A stretch of DNA of 64,000 nucleotides from Aquimarina sp. BL5 (GTDB taxonomy: Bacteria; Bacteroidota; Bacteroidia; Flavobacteriales; Flavobacteriaceae): assembly GCF_003443675.1 (NCBI RefSeq), contig NZ_CP031963.1, positions 372,001-436,000 of the forward strand, written 5' to 3'. Both the position numbers and the translations under genes were made by a program. Of the stretch, positions 37,736 to 41,093 are shown in pieces; position 1 is the first letter of the stretch; each line of letters opens with the position of its first letter. Under the pieces are notes generated by a model. It saw only the letters and a list, made by a program, of their open reading frames with translations. It was not told where the DNA came from and searched no databases.

Positions 37736-38299
37736 TTAGTTTCCTAAAAATACAGTATATACCACATTGTCTACGTTCCAACCTCTTTCATTAAAACATC
37801 TATTAGAAGCATCGGCATTTACAAAAGAAATTTTCTTTGGTCTGATTTGTCTTTGGATATCAGCGATATGAGCTTCGAACTGAAATTGATATATATCCAT
37901 ATTAATATCAGAGTCACCATCTATATAATAAGAATAGTCATAGGTAAATTGTTGAGCTTCTATTGGAAATATTATAATTCCTACAGGATAACTAATACAT
38001 CCCGAAGCATTAACATATTCTTCTATTTCTAAAGCGGCATCACTACCACAGCCAATATCACTATTTAGCGTACAACCCACTCTTTTCATAGTGGATATAC
38101 CATCCTCTTGCTTTTGTTGTAATTCTTCTAATAATTGTAACGTTTCTTGTTCATTAGAAACATCTTTTACGGTAACAAATTGCTGTACGTTAGGAGAAGA
38201 TTTTTGGATCTCAGGTGTTTCGTTTTCTTCTTTTTGGCAACTTGTAATGAATACAAATGAACAAAAGATAAGACTAAATTTTAATACGATTTTTTTCAT
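37736..38299 (-). CDS. Lipoprotein of unknown function, 187 residues
   Basis: Lipoprotein signal ending FITSCQKEENE; acidic residues after the Cys suggest surface display. A Gln/Glu-rich helix follows (ETLQLLEELQQKQED, about residues 52-66), then a compact Cys-containing domain with VGCTLNSDIGCGSDAA, SGCISYPVGIIIFPIE and ASNRCFNERGWN, ending YTVFLGN. Four cysteines could form disulfides outside the cell. I recognise no family. The domain looks globular with an alternating-strand pattern (QQFTYDYSYYIDGDSDINM). Single minus-strand gene, convergent with the YchJ-like unit. Confidence 0.78.
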   Translation of the reverse strand: MKKIVLKFSLIFCSFVFITSCQKEENETPEIQKSSPNVQQFVTVKDVSNEQETLQLLEELQQKQEDGISTMKRVGCTLNSDIGCGSDAALEIEEYVNASGCISYPVGIIIFPIEAQQFTYDYSYYIDGDSDINMDIYQFQFEAHIADIQRQIRPKKISFVNADASNRCFNERGWNVDNVVYTVFLGN

Positions 38300-38728: not shown

Positions 38729-38944
38729 ATGAAAAAGGTATTCTTATTACCAAGAGGCTTAGACAAGTTTTCTTCAAAGGAACTTAAAAACATGGAAGCT
38801 ATTTTAGGAGGAACAATCGATGTCCCTGTAGAAATATACTATCCAACTAGTGGCGGTAGAAGATGTGCAGATGGCCAGGTTTGGTCAGAAACATTACAAA
38901 AATGTGTTCCGATTGTTATCGGAGTACCTATTGAACGTAGGTAG
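38729..38944 (+). CDS. GG-leader peptide precursor (probable RiPP)
   Basis: 71 residues from ATG 38729 (MKKVFLLPRG); a start at 38678 would add 17 residues that break the leader pattern. Residues 1-28 look like a double-glycine leader: positively charged start, helix SSKELKNMEAILGG, cleavage expected after Gly28. The 43-residue core is TIDVPVEIYYPTSGGRRCAD followed by GQVWSETLQKCVPIVIGVPI and ERR: two Cys (core 18 and 31), one Trp, two adjacent Tyr and a Pro/Val/Ile tail. A radical SAM/SPASM enzyme gene follows 210 bp downstream on the same strand, so post-translational cross-linking is the likely fate. No transporter or C39 protease is close by. The leader type is seen; modification and activity are inferred. 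Confidence 0.72.
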   Translation: MKKVFLLPRGLDKFSSKELKNMEAILGGTIDVPVEIYYPTSGGRRCADGQVWSETLQKCVPIVIGVPIERR

Positions 38945-39052
38945 ACGATTAAGAAATGGGTGTTAATTTTCTTAGTGATAGTCACTATAGAACTTTAACA
39001 ATCACTATTTCAAATTCGTATATAGAAAAGGGTTGATCTATCAATCCATAAA

Positions 39053-39115
39053 ATACTAAGCGAAGCCAGAGAAACTTACTTGTACAATCTATTATCTCTG
39101 AACTTCGCTTAGTAT
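39053..39115 (+). promoter_or_regulatory. Long intercistronic hairpin between precursor and maturase
   Basis: ATACTAAGCGAAG at 39053..39065 is the exact reverse complement of CTTCGCTTAGTAT at 39103..39115; a second stem inside pairs CAGAGA at 39067..39072 with TCTCTG at 39095..39100. There is no T-run. A smaller hairpin, TAGTGA-TAG-TCACTA, lies at 38973..38987. Such structures commonly protect or attenuate so that the precursor is made in excess over its enzyme. Confidence 0.6.
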
Positions 39116-39154
39116 GCTAAATAAACGACTTTAACTTCTTAAAAAACACAACTC

Positions 39155-40378
39155 ATGCAATTCGATGCCTTAATACTCAAGGTTGCCAGTAGATGCAATC
39201 TTAATTGTTCTTATTGTTTTATGTATAATCTTGGCGATACAACCTATAAAAGGCAGCCTAAATTTATGTCATATGATATGATCGATTCGATTTTAGAAAA
39301 AACCAAAAAATACATTCTGAGATATAACAAAAAAGAGTTTTCATTTATCTTTCATGGAGGAGAGCCTTTATTAATAGAAAAGGATTTTTATAGAGCTTTT
39401 ATTACCAAAGCGAATACTATTAAAGAAACGTTACAAGATGTCGTTTTTAGATACGACATTCAGACCAATGGAGTTTTGATTGATAAGGATTGGTGTTCAT
39501 TGTTTAGAGAGTTACAGATTTATCCCAGTACCAGCGTAGATGGTACCAAAAAAGCACACGATATGTTCCGAGTGGATCATAAGGGTAATGGAAGTTATGA
39601 TCAAGTTTTTAATGCAGTAACATTACTTAAAAATCAAATAGGGTATGCCGACACGGTTTGTGTAATTAATATAGAGGAAGAACCAAAAGCTATTTATGAA
39701 AGTTTTAAAAAGATGCAGGTGAATTCTGTAAATTTTTTAATTCCTGATTTCACACATGATAACTTTCCATTTGATATGGAAAAAAGTGAAATGGCGGATT
39801 GGTTGATTGTATTATTTGATATTTGGATACAAGATCCGAATAGATATAAAATACCAATGTTCATTGGGATAATGAATAGGTTACTAGGTGTTACCGAGAA
39901 TTCTAATAATGAATCGGCAGTATTAGTAATTGAAACTAATGGGGGAATTGAAGCAATCGATTCATTGAAAGCCTGTGGTCATGGATTTACTAAGTCGGAA
40001 ATGAATGTATTGAATAATGATTTTTCTGATATCAAAAATTCACCACTAGGAAAATTATATTTCGAAGATAGTACTACAAAACTATGTTCTCAATGTTTAG
40101 AATGTCCTATTCGAGATGTTTGTCAGGGAGGAAGATTAGTACATCGATTTAAAAAGGAGAATGGTTTTAATAATCCATCTGTATATTGTAAAGATCTTAT
40201 TAAATTCATAGCTCATGTTCAGAATACACTGATCGGTCTTTTTCCAGAACTATATTCTAAAGAGCATATAGATCGCATGAAAACTGATGAGATAATGAGA
40301 TATGTTAATGATGCACATAAAAAAAAACGTACAAACATCAGTTATACTGATGAACTAGAGTTTTTTGGACAAATTTAA
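39155..40378 (+). CDS. Radical SAM/SPASM peptide maturase
   Basis: 407 residues. The radical SAM cluster motif is C14-x3-C18-x2-C21 (ASRCNLNCSYCFMY), followed by the GGEP motif (FIFHGGEPLL). The C-terminal SPASM region has Cys274 (KACGHG), Cys311, Cys314, Cys317 and Cys323 (LCSQCLECPIRDVCQGG) and Cys345 (YCKDL), with GRLVHRF and NGFNNPSVYC, which are typical of peptide-modifying members. The N-terminal LKVASRCNLNCSYCFMYN resembles the FxsB-like maturases that join side chains in three-residue cyclophanes. With the GG-leader precursor just upstream it forms a minimal RiPP cassette. The reaction and the residues joined are inferred only. Confidence 0.88.
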   Translation: MQFDALILKVASRCNLNCSYCFMYNLGDTTYKRQPKFMSYDMIDSILEKTKKYILRYNKKEFSFIFHGGEPLLIEKDFYRAFITKANTIKETLQDVVFRYDIQTNGVLIDKDWCSLFRELQIYPSTSVDGTKKAHDMFRVDHKGNGSYDQVFNAVTLLKNQIGYADTVCVINIEEEPKAIYESFKKMQVNSVNFLIPDFTHDNFPFDMEKSEMADWLIVLFDIWIQDPNRYKIPMFIGIMNRLLGVTENSNNESAVLVIETNGGIEAIDSLKACGHGFTKSEMNVLNNDFSDIKNSPLGKLYFEDSTTKLCSQCLECPIRDVCQGGRLVHRFKKENGFNNPSVYCKDLIKFIAHVQNTLIGLFPELYSKEHIDRMKTDEIMRYVNDAHKKKRTNISYTDELEFFGQI

Positions 40379-40517: not shown

Positions 40518-41093
40518 TTGTCATTGGAAGAGCAAGTTGTTACAACAAAGAAATTTACTAGAAATAATTTCTTTAAGAATACTTATTGTGTATTCAAAGG
40601 AGTACGATTAAGAGAAATATCTAGAAGAAAGCCACATTATCGTAGTGAATCCGGTAGTACATATTATTATACAACTAACGGAGTATATCGATTATCCAAT
40701 CATTGGGGAAGAGCAGCCAAATGTAACTGGAGACTGGTTTCAGAAATCCCTGTAGAGATTGATGATCTACGTTTAGGGTATGCGGATTGGACAGATTTTA
40801 GAGAGAATTTAAGTGAAGATGTAGATGCATATTATATAGCTGTAGATTTTGAAACGAAAACCGTGAGTTATAAGCATAAAGATAATCCAGCCTACGATCA
40901 GATAGCAATTATTAGACCTGTGGATGCCACTCGTAAATTGATTAAGCAAATTAAGAATCTTTTAGAAGATCATAAATGGGCAAAATATTACGATTACGAT
41001 GATTTAGATGAGTTCAGAAAAGAAGTAATTCTGGAACTAGTTAATACCAATAAATCATTGCAGGAGATACGACAGGAATTGGCTGCTTATTAA
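40518..41093 (+). CDS. Conserved-type protein of unknown function, 191 residues
   Basis: 191 residues from TTG 40518 (MSLEEQVV); no in-frame ATG fits better. It has no signal peptide or membrane segment. The N-terminal part is basic and aromatic (NTYCVFKGVRLREISRRKPH, then SGSTYYYTTNGVYRLSNHWG, RAAKCNWRLVSEIP), and the C-terminal part is helical and acidic (DYDDLDEFRKEVILELVNTN). The middle SNHWGRAAKCNWRL block looks like a folded core conserved in flavobacteria, in genomes where no RiPP is involved as far as I recall. Although it follows the maturase gene on the same strand, the hairpin at 40463 and the 139-bp gap argue against a shared role. Function unknown. Confidence 0.75.
   Translation: MSLEEQVVTTKKFTRNNFFKNTYCVFKGVRLREISRRKPHYRSESGSTYYYTTNGVYRLSNHWGRAAKCNWRLVSEIPVEIDDLRLGYADWTDFRENLSEDVDAYYIAVDFETKTVSYKHKDNPAYDQIAIIRPVDATRKLIKQIKNLLEDHKWAKYYDYDDLDEFRKEVILELVNTNKSLQEIRQELAAY

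Follow-up and report, generated by a model that had tools for sequence, protein, structure and literature searches.

A double-glycine leader peptide and its radical SAM enzyme in Aquimarina sp. BL5: a probable minimal triceptide-type RiPP cassette

Introduction

In the triceptides made by the radical SAM enzymes known as 3-CyFEs, an aromatic residue at position i is joined to the beta carbon of the residue at i+2 (PMC11002830). Among these enzymes XncB and OscB are reported to act on Trp and YhhB on Tyr and His, Tyr-based cross-links being described for both YhhB and YxdB; in the part of that account available here, the partner residues named are Arg, Asn, Asp, Ser and Ala, and neither Glu nor Thr (PMC11002830). 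Aro-x-Asn motifs are reported in a further study (PMC9062424).

The DNA considered here, called the window below, is the whole stretch of 64,000 nucleotides that was analysed from Aquimarina sp. BL5 (contig NZ_CP031963.1, positions 372,001 to 436,000), and it lies within a single contig; the genome measures 6.01 Mb. An original prediction, made from its letters alone, had described a compact locus comprising a short precursor with a double-glycine (GG) leader and a radical SAM/SPASM enzyme, probably specifying an undescribed RiPP cross-linked at Trp or Tyr. We compared this locus with its relatives and with the described families nearest to it.

Results

The precursor gene occupies positions 38729-38944 of the forward strand, with its ATG at 38729 and its stop codon ending at 38944, and encodes 71 residues. 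Re-reading of the open reading frame confirmed the proposed division into a 28-residue leader ending in LGG (38729..38812, forward strand) and a 43-residue core (38813..38944 with the stop codon, same strand), and the features of the core singled out earlier (the YY pair, VWSE, both Cys and a further GG) are all there. After a gap of 210 bp the same strand carries the gene for a YhhB/FxsB-like radical SAM enzyme whose set of SPASM cysteines is reduced (39155..40378; ATG at 39155, stop codon ending at 40378), for which the predicted length of 407 residues, the position, the CxxxCxxC motif (C14, C18, C21) and HGGEP were also borne out.

A search with the single precursor sequence returned 17 proteins, and a profile search returned 72 at E ≤ 10, all of them below 1e-11, from sources that include Aquimarina, Tenacibaculum and Kordia. 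Counted from the MKK or MNK start (the annotated start lies further upstream in a few records), the leader runs for 28 residues to the GG in 72/72 members. All but one of these proteins are complete through the core (71 of 72), the exception, P0193, being a fragment of 47 residues. P39-T40, C46, W52 and C59 are present in 71/71 complete members and G49 in 70/71, and the spacing from the Trp to the second Cys is six residues in 70/71 and five in one. The loop from Cys46 to Cys59 (C-x5-W-x6-C; 38864..38905, forward strand) is probably closed by a disulfide after export. Within it, Trp52-Ser53-Glu54 (38882..38890, forward strand) is proposed as the site of a three-residue cyclophane (Omega-x-X3) from its conservation and from the +2 pattern of the relatives described below. 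An aromatic-x-X3 motif thus stands beside the enzyme as W-[SHN]-x in 71/71 complete precursors: the residue at W+1 is S in 42, H in 21 and N in 8, and that at W+2 is E in 29, D in 21, N in 8, V in 4, S in 4, T in 2, H in 2 and A in 1, so that 58/71 have E, D or N and 13/71 have one of the other five. The pair ahead of P-T is more variable (YY 42, HY 10, YI 10, HI 7 and YF 2 of the 71). Outside the 72, the core at locus L065 retains PT...C-x2-G-x2-W-x6-C despite an unrelated leader.

The view that the precursor was undescribed held, as no NCBIfam or Pfam family matched it at cut-off. The NCBIfam scan of the precursor (P0001) gave 0 families at E ≤ 1, TIGR04149 and the other named families of GG-leader precursors included, and in the scan of 16 members five families appeared, each matched by one member, the sole precursor-type match among them being lant_leader_L1a at E 0.38. 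The structure model of the precursor is of low confidence (pTM 0.27) and has a beta hairpin (50-53/58-61) in its best-scoring stretch; PDB chains compared with the precursor profile matched at chance level only, the best being an antibody chain at E 0.054, with TNFRSF12A at 0.62. Kinship with CBM_14 (PF01607) was considered and not accepted, the score being 15.3 bits over 18 residues against a gathering score of 22.1.

For the enzyme, the best NCBIfam models are YhhB (NF041707) at 317.9 bits and FxsB (TIGR04269) at 283.7 bits, neither of which reaches its curated cut-off (445 and 370 bits, respectively), followed by a sulfatase maturase model at 183 bits and XyeB at 180 bits, while the PapB ranthipeptide maturase model gives 105 bits. 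The E-values of the YhhB, FxsB, XyeB and GrrM models range from 1e-33 to 1e-95, all under the cut-offs, and the order of YhhB best and FxsB next recurs in ten further enzymes of this group and its neighbours, all likewise below cut-off. The label of an undescribed RiPP can be kept for the precursor, which has no name in the databases searched; for the enzyme, YhhB and FxsB are named families that lie near. PADLOC matched the enzyme to viperin models only, at up to 46 bits.

The cysteines were compared in an alignment of 121 proteins, the enzyme (P0002) and the best 120 of its 2264 matches. Within this set those of CxxxCxxC are present in 93/93 proteins that reach the region, and 28/121 (P0069 and P0100, for example) begin after it, probably because of misplaced start codons. 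C274, C314, C317, C323 and C345 occur in 121/121 of the same proteins and C311 in 83/121. The canonical SPASM pattern is CX2CX5CX3C, and its fourth Cys is replaced by Arg327 in the window's enzyme, so that the SPASM cysteines, which had been described as intact, are for the most part present but form a reduced set. Judged by its sequence, the enzyme is a SPASM radical SAM protein related to the characterised 3-CyFEs and having this reduced set; its structure model has a pLDDT of 81 and a pTM of 0.83. In a tree of 34 enzymes, rooted at the midpoint, the 17 that accompany this type of precursor fall on one side of a branch with support 100/99. The enzyme of L065 falls in this group (100/99), a placement that rests on a long branch.

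The original prediction expected precursor and enzyme to occur together in related genomes, and they do so in the same 8/33 genomes of the genus and at 6/6 Kordia orthologues. The precursor was found in 8/56 relatives searched, all eight among the 33 genus genomes, and the same eight have the enzyme at 62-100% identity; three more genomes in this search hold relatives of the enzyme at 33-43%. In 8/8 Aquimarina genomes the precursor lies upstream of the enzyme, on the same strand and 74-210 bp away. A match to the enzyme is found at E ≤ 1e-90 in 8/11 Kordia genomes, in six of them as the orthologue, and each of these six has the precursor 104-123 bp upstream, one locus having two in tandem. In the family as a whole the precursor profile matches 2/397 genomes at E ≤ 0.01; a search of the same size found the enzyme in five genomes at E ≤ 1e-80, the two with the precursor carrying the orthologue and the other three an enzyme of the neighbouring type. 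A search of 392 genomes from the phylum gave eight with a match to the enzyme at E ≤ 1e-90, L065 being one of these. The pairing of precursor and enzyme exceeds chance.

At the Kordia locus L035 (573-1377) the two tandem precursors next to the single enzyme differ in their W-x-x triplets, and another contig perhaps holds three precursors (P0143, P0165, P0172). Such arrangements suggest that one enzyme may serve a small library of cores.

Only the precursor and the enzyme form the conserved unit, because the flanking genes differ between three sets of loci: nine from Aquimarina (placed between a YchJ-like gene and a pirin gene), L057, and six from Kordia, the last of which adjoin a Lon-like protease gene (named by eye). 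The YchJ-like neighbour, which served to ask whether the cassette had been inserted at an otherwise empty site, occurs in 18/33 genus genomes, and 10 of these 18 are without the cassette. Seven of the 10 were inspected: G027 (L142) is the only one that retains a 191-aa open reading frame and the downstream antiporter gene without the pair, and three others retain just one upstream neighbour, a picture that would fit insertion as well as loss. In the window this reading frame, of unknown family, follows the enzyme on the forward strand (40518-41093, TTG start). It is present at 89-100% identity in 9/16 loci, that is in 9/10 Aquimarina loci, and absent from L057 and all six Kordia loci; since cassette-free G027 has it too (69% identity), its conservation at this site does not seem to depend on the cassette. 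A 102-aa gene, c14, lies downstream of the cassette in 6/16 loci and is absent from the window. Both were considered as a third cassette gene and set aside, as by their distribution they look like parts of the Aquimarina site and not of the unit. In 4/16 loci, that of the window among them, a lipoprotein-like gene of 187 residues (37736-38299, reverse strand) separates the cassette from the YchJ-like gene.

The neighbouring enzymes offer a further view of the cores. In 11 of their precursors, whose cores were picked where the leader end was recognisable and after the motif had been noticed, and which leave out the His-rich L025 as well as L070 (no clear core), the +2 position holds E, D, K, R, Q or N for 28/32 aromatics of the core, compared with a mean of 9.15 (about 9.2) in shuffles that control for composition only, 0/5000 of which reach 28. 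The same residues show no excess at +1, +3 and +4 in these 11 precursors (8, 5 and 3). The pattern belongs to enzymes outside the window's group; the identities, where given, are 39-48%, measured to P0002 for L023 and L024/L068 and to P0040 for L031/L041, L028/L049, L029/L050 and L030/L039. The Kordia peptide of L041 repeats WEE-WGE-WGE-WAE, and that of L066 has WTQ-WTK. At L041, L042, L049, L050, L066, L069 and L023 the enzyme is preceded by a small precursor in which aromatic-x-polar motifs recur.

Two RNA elements accompany the pair. A DUF805b-type RNA leader (RF02914; 38677..38709, forward strand; 30.4 bits, E 5.6e-6), composed of a small hairpin and a GCC/GGC pseudoknot, ends 19 nt upstream of the precursor ATG and scores below the Rfam gathering value of 35.6. 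The element stands ahead of 8/8 Aquimarina precursors at 30.4-38.0 bits; of the other seven copies that of L008 (38.0) reaches the gathering score and six lie at 34.1-35.4. The neighbouring-type precursor of L023 also has one upstream (38.2 bits). The RF02914 search gave no match at E ≤ 1 ahead of the Kordia precursors or L065; by pattern, 7/7 Kordia precursors share the layout, with the pseudoknot pairing 3/3 in five and 2/3 in two. Over 31 elements the three-base pseudoknot covaries, with 43/48 pairs in 16 distinct arm pairs, the mean of shuffles being 30.0 and 0/10000 reaching 43.

At E ≤ 1e-7 the element was found in 57/120 family genomes versus 0/14 controls, 5 of the 14 control genomes having matches at E ≤ 0.05 and none of them above cut-off. 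The own genome has at least 18 matches at E ≤ 0.05 among the 150 of 4050 candidates that were scored. Of the 17 elements at E ≤ 1e-3 among these 150 (L071-L087), with gene classes assigned by eye, 11 directly precede short peptides with GG or AG leaders, 5 precede lipoprotein/Sec-type genes and 1 another gene. By the same assignment by eye, 29 of the best loci in other family genomes (L089-L117) comprise 24 before Sec/lipoprotein-type genes, 4 before GG-leader peptides and 1 other; because 24/29 of these outside loci precede Sec/lipoprotein-type genes, DUF805b appears to mark exported products generally and not RiPPs. Its first base lies mostly 46-64 nt upstream of start codons. A literature search on DUF805b found no description.

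The second element is a long intergenic hairpin (39053..39115, forward strand; outer arms 39053-39065 and 39103-39115; intergenic z -6.9). A long hairpin between precursor and enzyme was obtained in 16/16 loci folded (z -2.3 to -7.0); its sequence differs between Aquimarina and Kordia, and in L022 and several Kordia loci it is trailed by U-runs and resembles a terminator. A hairpin in this position would probably give a high precursor-to-enzyme ratio.

The statement in the original prediction that no transporter or protease gene is near holds for C39 exporters: all 4 PF03412 matches in the genome fall outside the window, and other transporters and proteases near the cassette were checked by eye only, among the open reading frames at 34-46 kb. 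The strongest of the four is a 734-residue protein at 5.437 Mb, whose gene adjoins an HlyD-like gene of 432 residues (named by eye) near two GG-leader peptides, one of which has a DUF805b element at 5,440,889. This C39 protein may also export the window's peptide. The locus (L145; G000:C1:5432000-5446000), which holds the C39 exporter, the HlyD-like gene and GG peptides of 73 and 77 aa, also contains two proteins of 425-427 aa that resemble each other.

Discussion

The sequence comparisons make the assignment of the two genes as a GG-leader RiPP precursor and its own radical SAM maturase well supported. We consider it probable that the cassette is a minimal triceptide-type RiPP locus whose product has a Trp52-Ser53-Glu54 cyclophane inside a two-Cys hairpin. 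The cross-link had been placed at Trp or Tyr, and only the first of these sites gained from the comparison: Trp52 is present in 71/71 complete precursors and the relatives have aromatic-x-polar motifs, whereas the Tyr-Tyr pair is not conserved (42/71). On this conservation Trp is the better-supported half of the earlier guess at the chemistry.

From the sequences we infer both a cross-link and a disulfide in the window's peptide, and the chemical steps, leader binding, export and expression ratio have the same footing. The radical SAM enzyme would bind the 28-residue leader, and its CxxxCxxC cluster would generate the 5'-deoxyadenosyl radical, which would abstract a hydrogen at the C-beta of residue 54. 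This carbon would then be joined to the indole ring of Trp52, yielding a strained three-residue W-S-E cyclophane. Cleavage of the leader after Gly-Gly would fall to an exporter of the C39 type whose gene lies outside the window, and the core would fold as a hairpin around the cyclophane, closed by the Cys46-Cys59 disulfide.

Several observations count against this scheme. The enzyme scores under the YhhB and FxsB cut-offs, and YhhB is reported to act on Tyr and His, not on Trp; neither Glu nor Thr is one of the partner residues listed in the Introduction; X3 is not strictly polar, as 13/71 precursors have V, S, T, H or A there; the +2 pattern comes from enzymes outside the window's group; and no exporter is linked to the cassette. 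The invariant T40, C46 and C59 could also be the modified residues. A thioether of the sacti- or ranthipeptide type, linking Cys46 or Cys59 with some other residue of the core, would account for the presence of both Cys in 71/71 complete precursors and agrees with the 105-bit PapB match and with the resemblance of the fold to 5why/5wgg, deposited under thioether formation in sactipeptides. We nevertheless regard it as unlikely, as the cores of L041, L049, L050 and L066 are without Cys and yet retain the aromatic-x-polar motif, and the YhhB and FxsB scores are about three times that of PapB.

The cross-link might also sit at Tyr38-Pro39-Thr40, an Omega-x-X3 motif with an invariant Thr, instead of or besides Trp52. 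P39-T40 is found in 72/72 precursors, and Tyr-based cross-links are reported for YhhB and YxdB (PMC11002830); this site fits less well than Trp52 because position 38 is Ile in 17/71, and position 37 is His in 17/71, while the PT may be recognised and not modified, so that we hold a cross-link there to be rather improbable. Very improbable, in our estimate, is that the peptide is a small CBM_14-like carbohydrate-binding hairpin, incidentally modified or merely lying beside the enzyme, with no cross-linked product: CBM_14 weakly matches 12/16 members (best E 0.015) and the source record of P0180 calls it a family 14 carbohydrate-binding module protein, but the co-occurrence of precursor and enzyme speaks against it.

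The triceptide-type scheme with Trp52 can be widened, tentatively and with considerable doubt, to a bicyclic RiPP produced by a partner-tolerant type of enzyme (accepting E, D, N, S, T, H, V and A), with a disulfide-closed hairpin and an export-sensing DUF805b leader. Here the invariant Trp would be locked as a cyclophane within the disulfide-closed Cys-x12-Cys hairpin, and the DUF805b pseudoknot leader would co-regulate the precursor with the remaining GG-leader and Sec-exported products of the cell; with such co-regulation, the leader would read out the state of peptide export.

The analysis defines an unnamed precursor family of 72 proteins together with its enzyme group. A triceptide motif inside a disulfide-type hairpin would be a scaffold of interest for peptide design, and the link to DUF805b gives a candidate structured RNA a testable job at exported-peptide genes. 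Cyclophane and radical SAM searches on Aquimarina, Kordia and Tenacibaculum, in which few subscription journals were covered, found no publication on the cassette.

Compared with known systems, the RNA element agrees with DUF805b (RF02914) in sequence and in its hairpin-pseudoknot layout; that name seems to point to DUF805 genes, whereas here the element precedes GG-leader and Sec/lipoprotein-type genes. After ChlB, described next, the anaerobic sulfatase-maturating enzymes (anSME, 4k36-4k39) have the closest fold, and their family model (183 bits) is slightly above XyeB (180). These enzymes act on Cys or Ser in sulfatases, and no sulfatase was noticed by eye among the open reading frames at 34-46 kb. 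ChlB (PDB 9gm3, 9gmc), solved with the leader of its precursor, is the nearest solved structure by sequence (E 3e-50) and has the fold nearest to the model of the window's enzyme (TM 0.82/0.89), but the identity is 29% and ChlB has a Thr aligned with C274; the chain in the structure goes by the name of a radical SAM domain, so that full ChlB may hold more. A literature search on ChlB found no paper. With the YhhB/FxsB triceptide maturases the window's pair shares the CxxxCxxC core, the best family scores, the aromatic-x-X3 motif and the precursor beside the enzyme, and it differs from them in the GG leader of its precursor, in the single Trp motif that this peptide has within a Cys-x12-Cys loop and in an X3 that is mostly Glu or Asp across the precursor family. 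The cassette represents a precursor family that is new, together with an enzyme group of its own, and its proposed chemistry is of a known kind.
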